This document shows, in pieces, positions 26,264 through 35,642 of a stretch of DNA of 64,000 bases. Position numbers and translations under genes: made by a program. Origin of the DNA: Banduia mediterranea. Lineage in GTDB: Bacteria > Pseudomonadota > Gammaproteobacteria > Nevskiales > Nevskiaceae. The stretch lies in contig NZ_JAVRIC010000001.1 of assembly GCF_031846245.1 (NCBI RefSeq), forward strand, positions 186,001 through 250,000, read 5' to 3'. The first letter of the stretch is position 1. Each line of letters starts with the position of its first letter. The notes under the pieces were generated by a model. It saw only the letters and a program-made list of their open reading frames with translations, did no database searches and was not told the DNA's origin.

Positions 26264-29200
26264 TCAGCGCCGCCCATGAATCAGCTTGTAGGCCGCCGGC
26301 AGCACCAGCATCGACAGCAGCGGCGCGCTGATCATGCCGCCGATCATCGGTGCGGCGATGCGCTGCATGATCTCCGAACCGGCGCCGCCGCCCCAGAACA
26401 TCGGCAACAATCCCGCCACGATCACCGCCACGGTCATCGCCTTGGGGCGCACGCGCTGCACCGCGCCTTCGATGATCGCGGCATCGAGGCCGTCGTCGCT
26501 CAGCGTTTCGCCGGACTCGCGGTAGCGGCGCAGTGCCTGGTCCAGATAAATCAGCATGACCACGCCGAACTCCGCCGACACGCCCGCCAGCGCGATGAAC
26601 CCGATCGCGCTCGCCACCGACACGGCATGTCCCAGCGCCCAGATCAGCCAGACACCGCCGATCAACGCGAACGGCAGCGTACCCATGATCAGCAGCGCCT
26701 CGGGCCAGCGCCCGAAGCTCAGATACAACAGCACGAAGATGATCGCCAGCGTCACGGGGATCACCAGCCGCAGGCGCTGCGCCGCGCGTTCCAGGTACTC
26801 GAACTGACCGGCCCAGGTGATCGAATAGCCGGCCGGCAACGCGAGCTGCTCGGCCACCGCCTGTTTGGCCTCGGCGACGTAGGAGCCCAGGTCGCGGCCG
26901 CGAATGTCAACGAAAACCGTGCCGGTCGGCCGCGCGTTCTCGCTCTTGATCATCGGCGGGCCGTCGACGATGGCGATCTCGGCGATGACGCCCAGCGTCA
27001 GCGTCTGCCCGTCCGCCGTGAGTAGCGGCAGCGATTCCAGCGCCGCCACCGAATCGCGCCATTGGCGCGGGTAGCGCAGATTGATCGGATAGCGCGCCAG
27101 ACCCTCCACGGTCTGGCCGATGTTCTGGCCGCCGACCGCCACGGCGACGATGCGGTTGAACTGCGCGATCGACAGACCGTAGCGCGCGAGCTGTTCACGA
27201 TGTGGATGCAGTTCGATGTAGCGACCGCCATCGACGCGTTCGGCGAAGGCCGACACCGTGCCTTCGATCGGCTTGAGCACAGCTTCGATCTCGCCGCCGA
27301 TACGGTCGATCACGGCCAGATCCGGGCCCGAAATCTTGAGGCCCACCGGCGACTTGATGCCGGTGGCAAGCATGTCGATGCGATTGCGGATCGGCTGTAC
27401 CCAGACGTTGCCCATGCCGGGAATCTGCAAGGCGGCATCGAAGGCTTCGATCAGTCCGGCCTGCGTCATGCCGGGCCGCCATTGATCGCGCGGCTTGAGG
27501 CGGATCGTGGTTTCGATCATCGTCAACGGCGCCGGATCGGTCGCCGTATCGGCGCGGCCGACCTTGCCGAACACGGTTTCGACTTCCGGAAAGGTCTTGA
27601 GGATACGGTCGGTCTGCTGCAGGGTTTCGGCGGCCTTGCCCGGCGACACGCCCGGCAGCGTGGTCGGCATGTACAGCACATCGCCTTCATCCAGTGGCGG
27701 GATGAACTCCGACCCCAGGCGCGTCATCGGCCACAGCGACAGCAGCAATACCAAGCCGGCCAGACCCAGCGTCCACCACGGATGGCGCAGCACGCGCAGG
27801 ATCACCGGCCGATACAGGCGTACCAGCACGCGGTTGAGCGGATTGGCGGACTCGGGCCGGATGCGTCCGCGCACGAACAACACCATCAGCACCGGCACCA
27901 GGGTCACGGACAGGCCGGCGGCCGCCGCCATCGCGTAGGTCTTGGTGTAGGCCAGCGGTGCGAACAGGCGTCCTTCCTGTGCCTGCAAGGTGAACACCGG
28001 CACGAAGGAGGCGGTGATGATCAGCAGGCTGAAGAACAGCGCCGGCCCGACTTCGGCGGCGGCCTCGGCGATGCGCCGGACATGATCGCCGCCGCTGCCT
28101 TCGTGCTCGATGCGCTTGTGTGCGTTTTCGATCATCACGATCGCGGCATCGACCATGGCACCGATGGCGATGGCGATGCCGCCCAGGCTCATGATGTTGG
28201 CGCCGATGCCCTGGTAGCGCATCACGATGAAGGCCACCAGCACGCCGACCGGCAGGCTCACCACCGCGACCAGCGCCGAACGCAGGTGGAACAGGAAGGC
28301 CGCGCAGACAATGGCGACGACGATGAATTCCTCCAGCAGTTTGTGCCCGAGGTTGTCCACGGCCCGCTCGATCAAGGCCGAACGGTCGTAGGTCGGCACG
28401 ATCTCGACACCTGCCGGCAGGCTGCCCCGCAGTTCTTCGAGCCTGGCCTTGACCGCGGCGATGGTCTCCACGGCGTTGGCGCCGTAGCGCATCACGATGA
28501 CGCCGCCGACGGTCTCGCCCTCACCATCGAGTTCGGCGATGCCGCGACGCAGTTCCGGACCGAGGCGGATTTCGGCGACATCCGCCAGGCGCAGCGGCAC
28601 GCCGTCACCGCGCACACCGAGGCCGATCTGGCGGAAGTCGTCGAGCGAGCGCAGATAGCCGCGCGAGCGCACCATGTATTCGGCTTCGCCGAGTTCGAGG
28701 ATGGAGCCGCCGGCCTCGCCGTTGGCGTCGCGCACCGCCTGTATCACCTGATCCACCGTGATTCCGTAGGCACGCAGCCGGTTCGGATCGACCACGATCT
28801 GGTACTGGCGATTGAAGCCGCCGAGCGTCGCCACCTCCGAAACGTTCGGCAGGCTCTTGAGTTCGTACTTCAGGAACCAGTCCTGCAGGCTGCGCAACTG
28901 CGAGAGGTCGTGCTGCCCGCTGCGATCCACCAGCGCGTATTCGTAGACCCAGCCCACACCGGTGGCGTCCGGCCCCAGCGATGCCCGGGCGCCGTCCGGA
29001 AGCCCCCCCTGAATCTGTGACAGGTACTCCAGCACGCGCGAACGCGCCCAGTACAGATCCACTCCGTCCTCGAACAACACGTACACGAAGGACTCGCCGA
29101 ACATCGAATAGCCGCGCACGGTCTTGGCATAGGGCACCGACAACATCGTCGTGGTCAATGGATAGGTGAGCTGGTCCTCGACCAGTTGCGGGGCCTGCCC

Positions 29201-29362
29201 CGGCCAGGTGGTGCGCACGATCACCTGCACGTCCGACAGATCGGGAAGCGCGTCCAGCGGGGTGGTTCGCACCGCCCATACGCCCCAGGCCACCGCCAGC
29301 GCCGTCGCCAGCAGCACCAGGAAACGGTTATCGATACTCCAGTGGATCAGGCGCGCGATCAT
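26264..29362 (-). CDS. cusA: Copper/silver efflux RND transporter CusA
   Basis: The 1032-residue HME-RND pump has 12 membrane helices with two large periplasmic loops. The three methionines that form the copper relay of E. coli CusA are in the right contexts ([27 protein letters not shown]), which argues for Cu(I)/Ag(I) rather than Co/Zn/Cd. TM4 carries [20 protein letters not shown] with the proton-relay Asp. It overlaps cusB by four bases and is the last gene of the cusCBA block. Confidence 0.94.
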
Positions 29363-30597
29363 GGGTGTTGCCCGTGAGGCGTGACTTGGTCCATGCGCGC
29401 ATAGACGCCTTGCAGGCTCGCCTCCGAATCGATCAGGAATTGACCGGAGACGACGACCTGCTGATCTTCTTCAAGCCCGCCCACGATCACCGTACGGCCA
29501 CGGCGCTCCGGGCCCAGTTCCACGGACACGGGCCGGAAACGGCCTTCGCCCTCGGCAACGATCACGGTGTTGCGCGAGCCGGTTCGGATCAGGGCTTCGC
29601 TCGGCACCGTCAGCACGTCGCGGCGCGCGCCGCCGTACAGCGTCACGTCCACAGACATGCCGGGCCGCAGCAGACCGTCCGGATTGTCGAACACCAGCCG
29701 CGCACGCACGGTGCGGCTGGCGGCGTCCGCCGTCGGATACAGATAGTCGACCTCGCCTTCCAGCAGACTCCCGGTGCTGTTGAGCAACTGCACCTCGGCC
29801 GGGCGCCCCTGAGCGATCCAGTCAGCCTGGGCCTCCGGAATGTCGGCATACACCCACACACGCGAGAGGTCGGCGATGCGCATCAGCGGCATGCCGGGTC
29901 CGATCTGGCGGCCTTCGTGGGCGTCCAGGTCGATCACCACACCGTCGATCGGCGAGACCAGGGACAGCTCGCGTTCGGCCGTGCCGCGCCGCCGAACGCC
30001 GTCGACCTGAGCCTCGGTGGCGCCGAGCAGCCGCAGACGTTGGCGTGAAGCTTCAGCCAGCGCCGCATCACCGGCCCGCAGCGCCAGCACATACTCCTGT
30101 TGCGCCGCGTACAGGGCCGGCGAATAGACGCCGGCGACGCGTTCGCCGCGCCGCACCGTCGCGCCGACGGTATGCACGGTCTGAGATTCGATCCAGCCCG
30201 AGGCGCGACTCTCGATGACGCGGATGCGCCGATCGTCGATCGCGACGCTGCCCACCGTATCGATGCGCTGCCAAAACGTGCCGCGCTCGACCGGCGCGGT
30301 GCGCACGCCCAGGTTCTGGGCCATGCGCGGATCGATGCTGACAAGGCCTTCACCAGAAACGGCCTGCCGGTACTTCGGCACCAGCGCCATGTCCATGAAC
30401 GGTGAGGGACCGGGTGCGTCGAAATGCACGTCCGGCTTCATCGGGTCGTACCAGTACAGCACCTCGCGTGCATCCGCAGCCGAGGCGGCGGGCGGGGACT
30501 CGGCGTCGGAGGCTTTCGGCGCACGTGCATACCAGATGCCGCCGGCCGCCACCGCGATGATCAGCAACGATGCGGCGATCAGACTTGTCCTGTTCAT
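29359..30597 (-). CDS. cusB: Copper/silver efflux periplasmic adaptor CusB
   Basis: The 412-residue membrane fusion protein has an N-terminal anchor ([24 protein letters not shown]) and then a metal-binding domain with [12 protein letters not shown] and [12 protein letters not shown], typical of CusB. A barrel-sandwich hybrid and beta-barrel domain follow. It joins CusA to the outer membrane channel and hands over metal. The ATG at 30597 overlaps the cusC stop (ATGA) with CGGAGA upstream. The last codons cross a GTGAGGC repeat unit. Confidence 0.92.
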
Positions 30598-31856
30598 TCG
30601 GATTCTCCGGCGGCGAGCCATTGCAGGCTGGCCGTTTTGTTCAATTCCTGGGTCTGCAGCCTCAGGCGTTGCAGACGAAGCTCCAGCACGGTACGGCGCG
30701 CATCGAATACCGGGGCGAGGCCGCCGTTGCCGGCGCGGTAATCCGCCAGCGCGGTGTCCGTGCGGCGCTGTGCCAGCGGCAGCAGCGTGTCGTCGTAGCG
30801 CCGCAGGCGTTCGCCAAGGCGGGTCCATTCGCGGTAGTCCGAGGCAGCCTGCGCACGCAGCTGCCGCAGGCGGTCCTCACGGCTGGCCGACTGTCCGGCC
30901 AGCATTGCGCGGGCGGCGGCCAGCTCGCGGTCCTGACGCCGGCTGGCGCCGACCCAGGGCAGATCGATAGCCACCTCCACGCTGATCATGTCGTCGTAAG
31001 GCTGGCGATAGGCATAGCCGGCCTGCACCTGCCAATCGGGCTTGTTCTGCGCCTGCGCGAGTTCGATCTGCGTCTGCGCCAGCGCCTCCAGCCGGTCTTC
31101 GCCGCGGATCTCCGGATGGGCCGCAAGACCGGCCAACAAGGTTTCCAGGGATGGCGGAGCCCTCAGCTGCGGCGCCTTGTCAGGCAGCGCCTCCTGCGCC
31201 GCCTGGTCCCCGATCCAGCGCGCCAGACGCGCCCGATCGACGGCCTGTTGCTGTTCGAGTTCCGCGATCCGGTCGCGCATTCGTTCCAGATCCAGGCTGG
31301 CCGCGAGCACCGTGGTCTGCCCGCCCTGGCCGCTGCCAAAACCGATCGTCGCGGTGTCCTGCTGATGCCGGCTTTGCGCGGTCAGCTGACGCATCAAGGC
31401 CAGCGCGCGTACGCCGCTCCAGACCGCGATCCAGGCCTGTGCCACATCCCGATCGATGCGTCGCCTCAATGCCTGGTAGCGGACTTCTTCCAGCGCCGCC
31501 GTGTCCTGCTCGCGCTGCGAGGCAAGTTCGCGCTTGGCGGCATTGGGCACGACCTGACGAATCCCGATTCGCGTCATGCTCATGCGTTCGGCGTCGTTGC
31601 GATACGGGTTGGGATCGGACAGGCTGAGGTTGCTCAGGCCCAGGTTCAGCGCCGGCACCGGCAGTTGCGCCGCCGAGACGGCGCGCTCTCGGGCCGCATT
31701 GATGTCGGCGCGCTGCGCCAGCAACGCGGGCTGCTGTGCGAGCGCCAGACGCTGCGCCTGTTCAAGCGCCAGCGTCGGCGCGGCCGCCACAGGCTGCGCC
31801 AACACGATCAGGATCAAGGCCCACGCCGCAGCGAAGGTGCCTGCCATTCTAAACAT
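30594..31856 (-). CDS. cusC: Outer membrane efflux protein CusC (TolC family)
   Basis: The 420-residue TolC-family protein has a signal peptide (MFRMAGTFAAAWALILIVLAQPVAAA) without a lipobox cysteine. It carries two repeats of the outer-membrane-efflux domain rich in Ala, Gln and Arg coiled coils. SSD and porin strands are visible only by pattern. The ATG at 31856 has GCGGAGA upstream; a longer upstream extension (to 32237) overlaps the next gene. It is translationally coupled to cusB. Confidence 0.88.
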   Translation of the reverse strand: MFRMAGTFAAAWALILIVLAQPVAAAPTLALEQAQRLALAQQPALLAQRADINAARERAVSAAQLPVPALNLGLSNLSLSDPNPYRNDAERMSMTRIGIRQVVPNAAKRELASQREQDTAALEEVRYQALRRRIDRDVAQAWIAVWSGVRALALMRQLTAQSRHQQDTATIGFGSGQGGQTTVLAASLDLERMRDRIAELEQQQAVDRARLARWIGDQAAQEALPDKAPQLRAPPSLETLLAGLAAHPEIRGEDRLEALAQTQIELAQAQNKPDWQVQAGYAYRQPYDDMISVEVAIDLPWVGASRRQDRELAAARAMLAGQSASREDRLRQLRAQAASDYREWTRLGERLRRYDDTLLPLAQRRTDTALADYRAGNGGLAPVFDARRTVLELRLQRLRLQTQELNKTASLQWLAAGESE

Positions 31857-31924
31857 GGATGTCTCCGCAAGAACGGACGGATCGCGAGCCCGGAACTGGC
31901 CCGGAAACGCGACTCGGTGAACGC

Positions 31925-32296
31925 TTAACTTGCGGAGCGGATCGGAGGTCGAAGTCGGGGAGCCTGCGGCAGCAGGCTCGAAATCGGCAGCGGCGCCGAG
32001 ACACGAAGCACGGCCGGCCCGATGGGCGCCGTGACCGCAAGCGCCATCGGCAAGGCCGCCGAGGTACAGCCGCTGGGGCAGTGGCAGGCGCTGGTCTGGC
32101 AGCACGGCAAAAGCTCGTCGCCCGCGTCGGCCGTCATGCCGTCGTGGCAATGCTCGGCGGGCATGCCGCTGGGCTCGGGCACGCTGGCGGCCGGCAGCAT
32201 CGGCGGCATGGCCACGGACGCGTAGGCCTGTCCGCACAGTGCGAACATCAGCAGAACCATGGCGCCAAGACGAATCATCGGCGCCATTGTAGCCAC
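31925..32296 (-). CDS. Small Cys/His/Met-rich periplasmic protein (CopL/DUF2946-like)
   Basis: The 123-residue protein has a signal peptide (about residues 1-26). A metal-binding-looking segment follows with GMPAEHCHDGM and CCQTSACHCPSGC (seven Cys, several His and Met), then a proline-rich tail LRPPIRSAS. Such small proteins often precede czc/cus efflux genes in Xanthomonadales and relatives and are linked to copper resistance. It sits 68 bases before cusC on the same strand. ATGs at codons 1, 5 and 7 are all possible; no strong Shine-Dalgarno is seen. Confidence 0.65.
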   Translation of the reverse strand: MATMAPMIRLGAMVLLMFALCGQAYASVAMPPMLPAASVPEPSGMPAEHCHDGMTADAGDELLPCCQTSACHCPSGCTSAALPMALAVTAPIGPAVLRVSAPLPISSLLPQAPRLRPPIRSAS

Positions 32297-32817: not shown

Positions 32818-35586
32818 ATGCAGATGAACGGCACGTGGACACGGGTGGTACTGGCGCTGGGCCTGGCGGCTCTCGGCGGCTGCGGCAGCAGCCCGGGCCC
32901 CAGCGGCGACGGTAGCGGCAGCGGATCGGGCAGCGGCTTCAAGACCTTCGAGGTCTGCGGCAGCGACGCGCAGGTCCGCGACCAGGCGCTGATCGCCTTC
33001 TTCGATGCGCGTGAAGGCGACACCATCGAATTCTGCGAAGGCAGGTTCAGCATCTCCACCGGCCTGATCCTGCACGGCAAGCGCGGCATCACCATCAAGG
33101 GCCAGGGCATGGACAAGACCATGCTGGACTTCGCCGAAAGCGACAGCGCGGAAGGCCTGAACATTTCGCACAGCGACGGCATCACCCTGCTGGGCTTCAC
33201 CGTGCGCGACACCCCCGGCAACGCGATCCGCGTATTCCGTTCCAAGTACGTCACCTTCCGCCAGATTCGTGCGCTGTGGAGCGGCTACGATACCTGCGAC
33301 ACTGATCCCGACGCCGACGACTCCTGCGCCCATCATGGGGCCTACGGTCTGTATCCGGTGGAATCGCAGCATGTGCTGATCGAGGATTCCGAAGCCTTTG
33401 GCGCCTCCGATGCCGGCATCTACGTCGGCCAGACCAGCGACGTGATCGTGCGGCGCACGCGTGCCGAATACAACGTGGCCGGCTTCGAGTTCGAGAACAC
33501 CTATCGCGCCGTGTTCGAGGACAACATCGCCACCAACAATACCGGCGGCTTCCTGGTGTTCGACCTGCCGAATCTGGCGCAGTACGGCACCAAGAACATC
33601 ATTCGCAACAACCAGTCGTACAACAACAACACCGACAACTTCGCGCCGATCGGCAATATCGTGGGCATCGTACCGCGCGGCACCGGCATGCTGTTGCTGG
33701 CCACCGACCAGCTCGAGGTCTATGGCAACGAGGTCAACGACAACGACACGCTGGGCATCGCCATCGTCAACTATGCGCTGGCCGACCCGAACCAGCCCGA
33801 CCAGAAGTACGACTTCTTCCCGGAGGGCATCCACATCCACGGCAACAGCTTCCGCGACAACGGCACCAATATCCAGCTGCCGAGCGCCGATCGCGGCACG
33901 TCCTCGCTGCTGCCGCTGCTGCTCAAGCTCAAGAACCTGGGCCGCTCGGCCCACATCACCTGGGATGGCGCGGTCGATGCGCCCAATGGCTGCACCCAGA
34001 TTCCGTTGGACGCCGACGGCATCCCGCTGACCGAACCGAACCCGAATGAAACACGCCCCGAACCGCGCGTGGACGAACGCGGTCGTCCGAATTTCATGGG
34101 TTCCGATCCCGAACCGGAATGCAAGTGGACCGAATGGAAGTTCGCCGAGGGCGAGGATGAGCCGAAGCTGCCGGAAAACGGGCTGTGCATCGAGGACGAC
34201 AACATCTTCGAAAATACGCAGCCGCTCGGCAATCTCACCACCACCGACTTCCTCAACGCCAAACTCACCTCGTCGGCCACCGCGCAGTTGGTGATCGACC
34301 TGCTCAAGCCGGCGACCACCAGCCTGGAACCGCATCGCTGCCAGCTACCCAGGCGCGCCGATCCCGATCTGGGGCTGCCGTTCGTGCCCAGCGCCGATTC
34401 GGACAGCGCGCGACCCAGCGATTCGGAAGTCAGCAAGGCCTGCAACGGTGGCCCGTCCGGTGAGCCGAACTTCGCGGCCGCGGCCCAGTACAACTGCCCG
34501 GACCTGGCGCAGTACGGCCTGTTCCATGACGACGAAGATCCGCGCAGCGGCGCCAATGGCGGTGTCCTCTACGGTCTGAGCACGCCGCTGTTCTCGGACT
34601 ACGCGAACAAGCACCGTTTCGTGTTTCTGCCGCCCGGCAAGGCGGCGAAATACCAGGACCATCATGACGGCATCACCGCCACGCTGGACTTTCCGGTCGG
34701 CACGATCATCGCCAAGACCTTCTCGTTCCTGGACGGCGCCGACGAGCACATCATCGAGACCCGCCTGCTGATCAAGCGCGAGACCGAAACCGGCACCACC
34801 TGGATCGGCCTGCCCTATATCTGGCAGGACGAAGGCGGCAAGCGCGTGGCCAAGCTCACGGTCGAAGGCGGCTCCGCCAAGGTGCACTACAACTTCGACG
34901 ATCCGGACCCCGACGTGGACGCCCACTACGAAGGCCAGGTCGAGCGCTACGGTATTCCGGCCGCGATGAACTGCATCTCCTGCCACGGCGGCGATGATCG
35001 CGAACCCGGCTCGGCGCCGATCGGTCCCAAGCCGCGCCTGATGAACCGCGACATGGATTACGGCGACGAAGGCGTGATGAACCAGCTGGTCTACTGGCAG
35101 ATGCACGGCCTGCTCGAAGGCCTGCCGGCCAATCTCGAGGACGTGGAACGCCTGCCGCGCTGGAACGTACCGGGCGACACCGGCGAGCTGCCGGACAGCG
35201 AGGCCGATATCCACCTGCGCGTGCGTGCCTACCTTGAAACCAATTGCGCGCACTGTCACAACTCGCACGGCGGCGCCAGCAATTCGGGCCTGTACCTCGA
35301 CAGCTTCCGCACCGTCGACAACCGCTACGGCATCTGCAAGAAGCCGGTCGCGGCCGGCAAGGGTTCCGGCGGGCGGCTCTACGACATCGTGCCCGAATCG
35401 GCGAACGATTCGATCCTGCCGTTCCGTGTCGGCTCGGCCGAAGCCGGCGTGCGCATGCCGCCGATCGCGCGCACCGTACCGCACGGCGAGGCCGTGGCCC
35501 TGATCCAGCAGTGGATCGACACGGTACTTCCGACCGACGACACCGAAGACGCGGACGTCTGCACAGGACCGCTTTCGGGCTTCTGA
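32818..35586 (+). CDS. Lipoprotein fusing a parallel beta-helix domain to an SO2930-type diheme cytochrome c
   Basis: The 922-residue protein starts with a lipoprotein signal (lipobox LGGC, Cys22) and a Gly/Ser linker. Residues about 35-400 are a right-handed parallel beta-helix with repeating VxIxD/NxxY turns (FENTYRAVFEDNIATNN, GTKNIIRNNQSYNN), as in TIGR03805. Residues about 570-920 match the SO2930-family diheme cytochrome (TIGR03806), with FLPPG, heme motifs CISCH (near 719) and CAHCH (near 810), and a final MPP/IQQW segment. In other bacteria these are usually two neighbouring genes. ATG 32818 fits the signal peptide; longer starts add unrelated residues. Confidence 0.85.
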   Translation: MQMNGTWTRVVLALGLAALGGCGSSPGPSGDGSGSGSGSGFKTFEVCGSDAQVRDQALIAFFDAREGDTIEFCEGRFSISTGLILHGKRGITIKGQGMDKTMLDFAESDSAEGLNISHSDGITLLGFTVRDTPGNAIRVFRSKYVTFRQIRALWSGYDTCDTDPDADDSCAHHGAYGLYPVESQHVLIEDSEAFGASDAGIYVGQTSDVIVRRTRAEYNVAGFEFENTYRAVFEDNIATNNTGGFLVFDLPNLAQYGTKNIIRNNQSYNNNTDNFAPIGNIVGIVPRGTGMLLLATDQLEVYGNEVNDNDTLGIAIVNYALADPNQPDQKYDFFPEGIHIHGNSFRDNGTNIQLPSADRGTSSLLPLLLKLKNLGRSAHITWDGAVDAPNGCTQIPLDADGIPLTEPNPNETRPEPRVDERGRPNFMGSDPEPECKWTEWKFAEGEDEPKLPENGLCIEDDNIFENTQPLGNLTTTDFLNAKLTSSATAQLVIDLLKPATTSLEPHRCQLPRRADPDLGLPFVPSADSDSARPSDSEVSKACNGGPSGEPNFAAAAQYNCPDLAQYGLFHDDEDPRSGANGGVLYGLSTPLFSDYANKHRFVFLPPGKAAKYQDHHDGITATLDFPVGTIIAKTFSFLDGADEHIIETRLLIKRETETGTTWIGLPYIWQDEGGKRVAKLTVEGGSAKVHYNFDDPDPDVDAHYEGQVERYGIPAAMNCISCHGGDDREPGSAPIGPKPRLMNRDMDYGDEGVMNQLVYWQMHGLLEGLPANLEDVERLPRWNVPGDTGELPDSEADIHLRVRAYLETNCAHCHNSHGGASNSGLYLDSFRTVDNRYGICKKPVAAGKGSGGRLYDIVPESANDSILPFRVGSAEAGVRMPPIARTVPHGEAVALIQQWIDTVLPTDDTEDADVCTGPLSGF

Positions 35587-35596
35587 GTTTGGGGCG

Positions 35597-35642
35597 TAGA
35601 CTCCTCCGGTACAGGTCGACGATCCTGTACCGGAGGAGTCTA
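35597..35642 (+). promoter_or_regulatory. Perfect hairpin that buries the ribosome-binding site of the next gene
   Basis: TAGACTCCTCCGGTACAGG (35597-35615) and its exact complement (35624-35642) are separated by 8 bases. The right arm contains the GGAGGAG Shine-Dalgarno and ends on the A of the ATG. There is no T-run after it, so a terminator role is less likely than control of translation or protein binding to DNA. Confidence 0.8.

Follow-up and report, generated by a model that had tools for sequence, protein, structure and literature searches.

The subject of this analysis is a gene in a 64,000-nucleotide stretch of the Banduia mediterranea genome (NCBI RefSeq assembly GCF_031846245.1, contig NZ_JAVRIC010000001.1, positions 186,001 to 250,000 of the forward strand), referred to below as the window. 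The gene encodes a single-chain lipoprotein in which a beta-helix domain of the TIGR03805 family is followed by a diheme cytochrome c resembling the TIGR03806 family. The fusion, to which an initial annotation of the window had drawn attention, is real and ordinary, being old and common in the order; the actual news is the pocket of the first haem, whose domain resembles cytochromes P460 and c'-beta. The protein is tentatively read, at a little short of an even chance, as a single-chain surface redox enzyme composed of a P460-like haem 1, an electron-exit haem 2 and a polysaccharide-type beta-helix. Two families long annotated as a pair of unknown role thus gain a testable mechanism. The parts of the gene are listed here by window position, with residue numbers counted throughout from the ATG at 32818, although the ATG at 32824 is the favoured start.

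32824..35586 (alternative start 32818), + strand: fused lipoprotein gene (open frame, start conservation in the congener)
32881..32883, + strand: lipobox cysteine Cys22 of LGGC (sequence, same-genus orthologue L072)
32998..33969, + strand: beta-helix domain TIGR03805, residues 61-384 (302.2 bits; model Z-scores to AlgE4, RbmB and NosD)
33970..34491, + strand: linker of the fused form, residues 385-558, with Cys435, Cys457 and Cys542, Cys560 lying just beyond its end (cysteine conservation)
34492..35052, + strand: haem-1 domain, residues 559 to about 745, with a predicted P460/c'-beta-like sheet ending in CxxCH (VIA, hhalign)
34714..34716, + strand: Lys633 of G628-x4-K633, putative position of the P460 haem-crosslinking lysine (row conservation)
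34972..34986, + strand: haem-1 motif CISCH, residues 719-723 (row conservation)
35200..35523, + strand: haem-2 cytochrome c domain, with CAHCH at residues 810-814 and Met880 (row conservation)

The likeness of the haem-1 domain to P460 emerges from both structural and profile comparisons. The cytochrome half was modelled alone (residues 554-922) with a predicted local distance difference test score (pLDDT) of 75.9 and a predicted template modelling score (pTM) of 0.80. Among 999 PDB chains aligned by VIA, the top five are all P460 or c'-beta, namely the c'-beta proteins of T. thermophilus (Z 6.8 over 118 residues) and N. europaea (6.7) and the P460 proteins of M. capsulatus (6.3, two entries) and N. 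europaea (5.1); the next chain, which is unrelated, scores 4.8. The five-stranded-sheet fold is described as unique to P460 and c'-beta in a passage of a 2025 review (PMC11928373), in which a word search finds neither ‘diheme’ nor ‘fusion’. When the haem-1 profile is compared by hhalign with a profile of 23 PF16694 proteins, the match has a probability of 86.2%, an E-value of 4.9e-6 and a score of 41.05. The best of 100 column-permuted controls scores 20.1 (0 of 100 as good) and the reversed profile 14.9, while the haem-2 half and the beta-helix reach probabilities of 17.8% and 0.13%, respectively, against the same target. The probability is 66% for a profile of fused forms only, 49% for split forms only and 69% for forms fused to GSDH (a pyrroloquinoline quinone (PQQ) sugar dehydrogenase of the glucose/sorbosone type, PF07995) only.

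Conservation was counted over the 70 cytochrome domains of the tree described below (30 fused, 26 split, 10 GSDH, 3 alone and 1 apparently frameshifted) or over 90 rows that include 20 from the Bacteroidota phylum. The hhalign alignment places Lys633 on the P460 lysine within a shared FPxGTxxxK motif, and this residue is lysine in 90/90 rows, with Gly628 being glycine in 86/90. A section of a paper on the M. capsulatus protein (PMC6427953) names Gly73 and the crosslinking Lys78 among just five positions that never vary across 144 P460 sequences, and the identical spacing of G628-x4-K633 suggests that the lysine of the crosslink position is present. The haem-1 motif CISCH retains its C, C and H in all 90 rows, and no second invariant His or Met for haem 1 is found within the haem-1 domain across the 70 rows, as expected for an open haem. 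Haem 1 would thus be open and perhaps crosslinked, and the P460-like sheet, open distal side and invariant lysine suggest that it is probably a catalytic or small-ligand site. The domain shares with P460 and c'-beta the CxxCH at its C-terminal end and the G-x4-K spacing, and its modelled sheet tentatively resembles theirs, but it is larger and its chain also includes a beta-helix and another haem, of the His/Met type.

Several observations weigh against this assignment. A Foldseek search with the model of the cytochrome half returns nothing at E <= 0.001, and the VIA Z-scores for the P460/c'-beta sheet fold are all below 8, a range that according to the tool possibly reflects a common arrangement. 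The hhalign match lies below 95% and is confident over 37 columns only. PF16694 gives no match to the window protein at E <= 0.1 and matches 2 of 15 relatives weakly (best E 0.0045), and the G[TSA]x3K motif occurs in just 8 of the 23 PF16694 rows. An invariant counterpart of the fully conserved Lys115 of P460 was not found in the 90 rows; position 653, its uncertain counterpart, is H in 33, K in 28 and R in 21. The 2025 review (PMC11928373) states in part that a distal carboxylate is needed, a crosslinked protein without the carboxylate failing to oxidise hydroxylamine, and Glu647 (88/90 rows) is no more than a candidate for it, assigned solely by strand pairing. The same source gives P460 potentials of about -300 to -424 mV in one passage, and a haem of such very low potential would be awkward as an electron acceptor in the GSDH fusions.

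The second haem is of a more familiar type. Both CxxCH motifs (719-723 and 810-814) lie within the TIGR03806 match, in the C-terminal half as initially annotated, and are invariant in 70/70 rows. At haem 2, C810, C813, H814 and M880 are present in 70/70 rows and H814 and M880 in 90/90, a pattern pointing to His814/Met880 as the likely ligands. A search of PDB sequences with the cytochrome profile retrieves mainly generic cytochromes c. Both haems might simply relay electrons to soluble cytochromes, taking them from some other enzyme that docks on the helix, with Lys633 serving a structural role or as an axial ligand of haem 1. The GSDH fusions make such a relay a natural reading, because the same cytochrome module follows GSDH domains in 10/70 rows, all in one well-supported clade, and part of one study (PMC12055684) considers secreted Teredinibacter proteins of the GSDH-cytochrome c type as redox partners. 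A relay fits less well with a haem 1 for which no further invariant Met or His is found and which resembles P460 and c'-beta in fold and profile alike. Nor do the fused forms have a partner gene conserved next to them, neighbour clustering having revealed no gene family that adjoins the fused clade in general. Plain electron transfer is regarded as possible, though less likely than the enzyme reading.

For the preferred reading, that of a surface redox enzyme, the following arrangement is proposed. The beta-helix, whose fold is predicted by the model, would bind an envelope polysaccharide or similar polymer, and the cysteine-bearing linker would lock it to the cytochrome half. Haem 1 would lie in the P460/c'-beta-like sheet with its distal side open and the invariant lysine at the crosslink position, and haem 2 would connect haem 1 electronically with another cytochrome, periplasmic or soluble. 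The chemistry would most likely be P460-type oxidation, or peroxide or nitric oxide (NO) chemistry, with a small nitrogen-oxide or a group of the bound polymer as candidate substrates. A broader proposal, which seems a real possibility at clearly under even chances, is that the whole SO2930/TIGR03806 family, in its fused, split, Bacteroidota and PQQ-dehydrogenase forms, is a large branch of the P460 superfamily in which haem 1 is lysine-crosslinked and wired to a His/Met haem, the fused form being aimed at envelope polysaccharide by its epimerase-type helix. If this were true, P460 chemistry would be widespread beyond nitrifiers and methanotrophs, and surface-anchored.

The initial annotation had proposed that the beta-helix binds a surface polymer, and the kind of fold that this idea presupposes is borne out by the model of the full-length protein (pLDDT 79.3, pTM 0.80). 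The modelled helix aligns with the AlgE4 epimerase with Z 34.2 over 305 residues at a root-mean-square deviation of 2.8, and with an alginate epimerase/lyase (Z 32.9), the RbmB lyase (32.0) and NosD (29.5). The likeness to AlgE4, RbmB and NosD is that of a right-handed beta-helix, and by the model the domain is of the polysaccharide-acting kind of fold, from which a polymer-binding or polymer-acting role is inferred. Searches of PDB sequences with the whole protein, the helix profile and the helix piece give no useful relative. The 57 helix domains compared share Tyr176, Pro180, Val181, Asp198, Tyr202, Gln205, Glu224, Glu226 and Asn227 without exception, 56 of them have Tyr179, and the conserved motif is YGxYPV. 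In this respect they differ from the epimerases, whose motif is YG[FL]DPH; the catalytic Asp and His would then correspond to Tyr179 and Val181. Epimerase activity of the beta-helix is unlikely because both presumed catalytic residues would be replaced.

The two domains are separated by 143-237 amino acids in the fused proteins and by a 174-residue linker in the window protein. Cys542 and Cys560 are present in 30/30 fused proteins, as is Cys840 in the haem-2 domain, with Cys435 in 26/30 and Cys457 in 28/30. The suggestion that the two halves act as one machine is supported by this conservation of Cys542 and Cys560, by the occurrence of the fusion in 30 rows and by the adjacency of the split pairs, in which the helix gene comes first in 26/26 split rows classified.

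Family membership was assessed against the curated profiles. TIGR03805 matches residues 61-384 with 302.2 bits, over its curated cut-off of 141.5. TIGR03806 matches residues 559-902 with 300.4 bits over profile positions 1-313 of 314, in agreement with the domain boundary expected near residues 540-580; because the score is slightly under the curators' cut-off of 313.3, the cytochrome half is called ‘SO2930-like’, just outside the family. The surroundings of the gene's family were surveyed in 61 genomes of the order, comprising its own genome and 60 relatives, where TIGR03806 is matched in 43/61 genomes and TIGR03805 in 46/61. The TIGR03806 cut-off is passed by 1/61 genomes, and in the other 42 of the 43 matching genomes the score falls short of it. 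Of the 64 TIGR03806 matches, 53 share an open frame with TIGR03805, spread over 40/61 genomes. The 59 matches above 200 bits comprise 52 fused proteins, 6 GSDH fusions and 1 at a contig end, and no split pair was seen among full-length TIGR03806 matches in the order. The idea of the fusion as a rarity is thus rejected, since it is the norm in the order. The description of the two families as adjacent genes holds for the split pairs and is only half of the picture, fused forms being common. The NCBI text for TIGR03805 reportedly states that the two domains may be fused.

Within the gene itself, the translation of window positions 32818-35586 (+) gives 922 amino acids with the terminal stop as the sole stop, and the fused gene is present in single copy in its own genome. 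The same-genus orthologue is open and collinear, with 888/922 identical residues overall and 170/174 in the linker, and its nucleotide differences from the window gene fall mainly at third codon positions. ATG 32824 is the more likely start, because ATG 32818 reads ATA (Ile) in the orthologue whereas ATG 32824 is conserved there. A lipobox-like LGGC ends at Cys22, is followed by a Gly/Ser linker and is kept in the orthologue (L072). Lipid anchoring at the outer membrane is suggested because no Asp is present at +2. The initial description of a beta-helix and a diheme cytochrome in one lipoprotein chain is therefore upheld by the single frame, the two domain matches and the LGGC. One might suppose that assembly or annotation had wrongly joined two genes, given that separate genes encode the two families in other genomes (26 split rows). 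A stop or frameshift between 34300 and 34500 was looked for and is absent, the orthologue being open and collinear across the join; the congener has the same join, as do 53 matches from the order, and the linker region has invariant cysteines of its own. This artefact, which retains next to no probability, is refuted by the orthologues.

A phylum-wide draw yields TIGR03806 matches in 31/299 genomes. Around the phylum of locus L034 (Bacteroidota) there are matches in 38/198 genomes, and all 24 matches above 200 bits lie in frames of 350-496 amino acids, which leave no room for the two domains together at the sizes observed in this analysis. A search of plasmids gives six records, with a split pair on one. 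The comparison of fused and split forms that had been suggested was carried out as a tree of the 70 cytochrome domains, in which the fused and split classes were taken from cleaner profiles after an early helix profile had spilled into the cytochrome half. The tree leaves out L023, which lies on the same contig as L077, and the truncated L036, L116, L125 and L126; L028, an apparently frameshifted fused gene in a metagenome-assembled genome (MAG), is labelled apart.

Three well-supported clades, starred in the tree, correspond to the fused, split and GSDH forms. The window protein belongs to a gammaproteobacterial clade of 27, consisting of 26 fused rows and the frameshifted row. A second clade of 27 comprises every one of the 26 split rows together with a lone cytochrome; the third consists of the 10 GSDH fusions. 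From this clade pattern the fused architecture is old and stable. The fused state needs 4 changes on the tree, of which at least 2 are forced. Four fused rows, one from a Myxococcota MAG and three gammaproteobacterial, fall outside the clade of the window protein, so the tree does not establish that the fusion arose once.

In the GSDH fusions (among them Microbulbifer L037 and the order members L080 and L111-L115), the same cytochrome module likewise lies C-terminal to a carbohydrate-related domain, but a PQQ dehydrogenase propeller replaces the beta-helix and the proteins form their own starred clade. Both these fusions and the P460/c'-beta likeness of haem 1 had been missed by the initial annotation. 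Giant proteins of about 1900-2165 amino acids combine GSDH with the cytochrome module at L037 4027-9681, L118 3696-10190 and L117 4380-10496. The L037 protein has, besides these, CBM26, another cytochrome c and PSD/PSCyt domains of planctomycete type. At L033 3559-7080 (a Colwellia MAG), the module occurs without a beta-helix, as the C-terminal end of a protein that also has Ig-like and PSCyt1 domains. Conversely, a TIGR03805-type helix with a different haem partner is found at L110 4764-8990 (the Ruegeria pomeroyi megaplasmid), where the genes upstream of it encode a c-type cytochrome, a member of the cytochrome c peroxidase family and a TPR protein. Teredinibacter proteins that combine a carbohydrate-binding module with GSDH and cytochrome c are proposed, in part of the study cited above (PMC12055684), as activators of lytic polysaccharide monooxygenases. 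A role for the window protein as electron donor to such a monooxygenase on the same polymer is very improbable, LPMO_10 (PF03067) being matched in 0/61 genomes including its own; other families of these monooxygenases were not searched.

Both families and their fusion are already known kinds; what is new here is that haem 1 is read as P460-like and that the phylogeny falls into three parts. Searches confined to open-access papers found no functional study of SO2930, SO2931, TIGR03805, TIGR03806 or a beta-helix paired with a diheme cytochrome, no link to P460 and no three-way phylogeny. With TIGR03805/TIGR03806 pairs, split or fused, the window protein shares both domains in the order helix then cytochrome, the two CxxCH motifs and a signal or lipoprotein N-terminus; it is distinguished by its fused form, its 174-residue linker with the fused-form cysteines and its TIGR03806 score under the cut-off. 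Genome G276, whose OmcA/MtrC genes point to a Shewanella-like organism, encodes a fused lipoprotein of 886 amino acids (scoring 436.7 and 430.7 bits against the two profiles) with a cytochrome of 370 amino acids nearby. In the Shewanella-like genomes G276 and G350, the fused protein probably corresponds to SO2931 and the single cytochrome beside it to SO2930. This probable SO2931/SO2930 pair has the same fused architecture as the window protein, with the G276 protein lying apart from the latter's clade in the tree. If the correspondence is right and haem 1 is a P460 haem, SO2931, which was deleted in Shewanella work together with better-known neighbours, would become a candidate enzyme and not a wire.

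SO2931 is often listed with extracellular electron transfer, and one passage of the literature calls it an outer-membrane diheme lipoprotein (PMC5357785). The window protein could by analogy work with an Mtr-type porin-cytochrome conduit in mineral reduction: two such loci, OmcA/MtrC-MtrA-MtrB and MtrA-MtrB, are present in its own genome, and G276 and G350, which encode OmcA/MtrC proteins, carry fused relatives of 885-886 amino acids. The protein has only two haems in 920 residues, and any match to MtrB is found in 4/61 genomes of the order (2 over the cut-off) versus 40/61 for the fused protein. On this co-occurrence an Mtr partner is rejected as the general role, and extracellular electron transfer is considered improbable for the window protein. 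The two extracellular-electron-transfer-type conduits of the window's own genome lie at G000:C14 (L159 8310-13782), with OmcA/MtrC (558.8 bits), an MtrA-like decaheme protein and an MtrB porin, and at G000:C10 (L160 7101-11547), with a decaheme protein, MtrB and a PdsA-like diheme protein.

Two further features follow the fused gene in the window.

35600..35639, no strand assigned: hairpin with a perfect stem, lying between the fused and esterase genes, at a single place in the genome
35642..36811, + strand: esterase-like lipoprotein, resembling polyhydroxybutyrate depolymerase (below curated cut-offs)

The esterase lipoprotein is present downstream as initially annotated but is not a conserved neighbour, adjoining the fused gene nowhere but in this genus (two genomes, 2/57 stretches examined). 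It is rejected as a partner and is probably not part of the system. The 3' arm of the hairpin carries the GGAGGAG of the esterase gene and covers its ribosome-binding site, and in the congener the stem is kept and the loop altered; the element looks like a translational switch or a processing or termination element. Elsewhere, a TonB receptor adjoins all 6/6 members of one split subclade (L096-L099, L104 and L109), and neighbour clustering places none immediately beside other split pairs or fused forms. Being limited to that subclade, the receptor operon was dropped as part of the mechanism. The congener (L072 10457-12874) and another family member (L088 9526-12018) have a PvdQ-like acylase lipoprotein oriented divergently from the fused gene; the matching place in the window lacks it. 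On the left side of the window's fused gene, next to its start, lies a metal efflux operon of the CusA/CusB type with a CusA/CzcA-type resistance-nodulation-division (RND) pump, a CusB-like adaptor and an outer-membrane factor (26264-32237, - strand).

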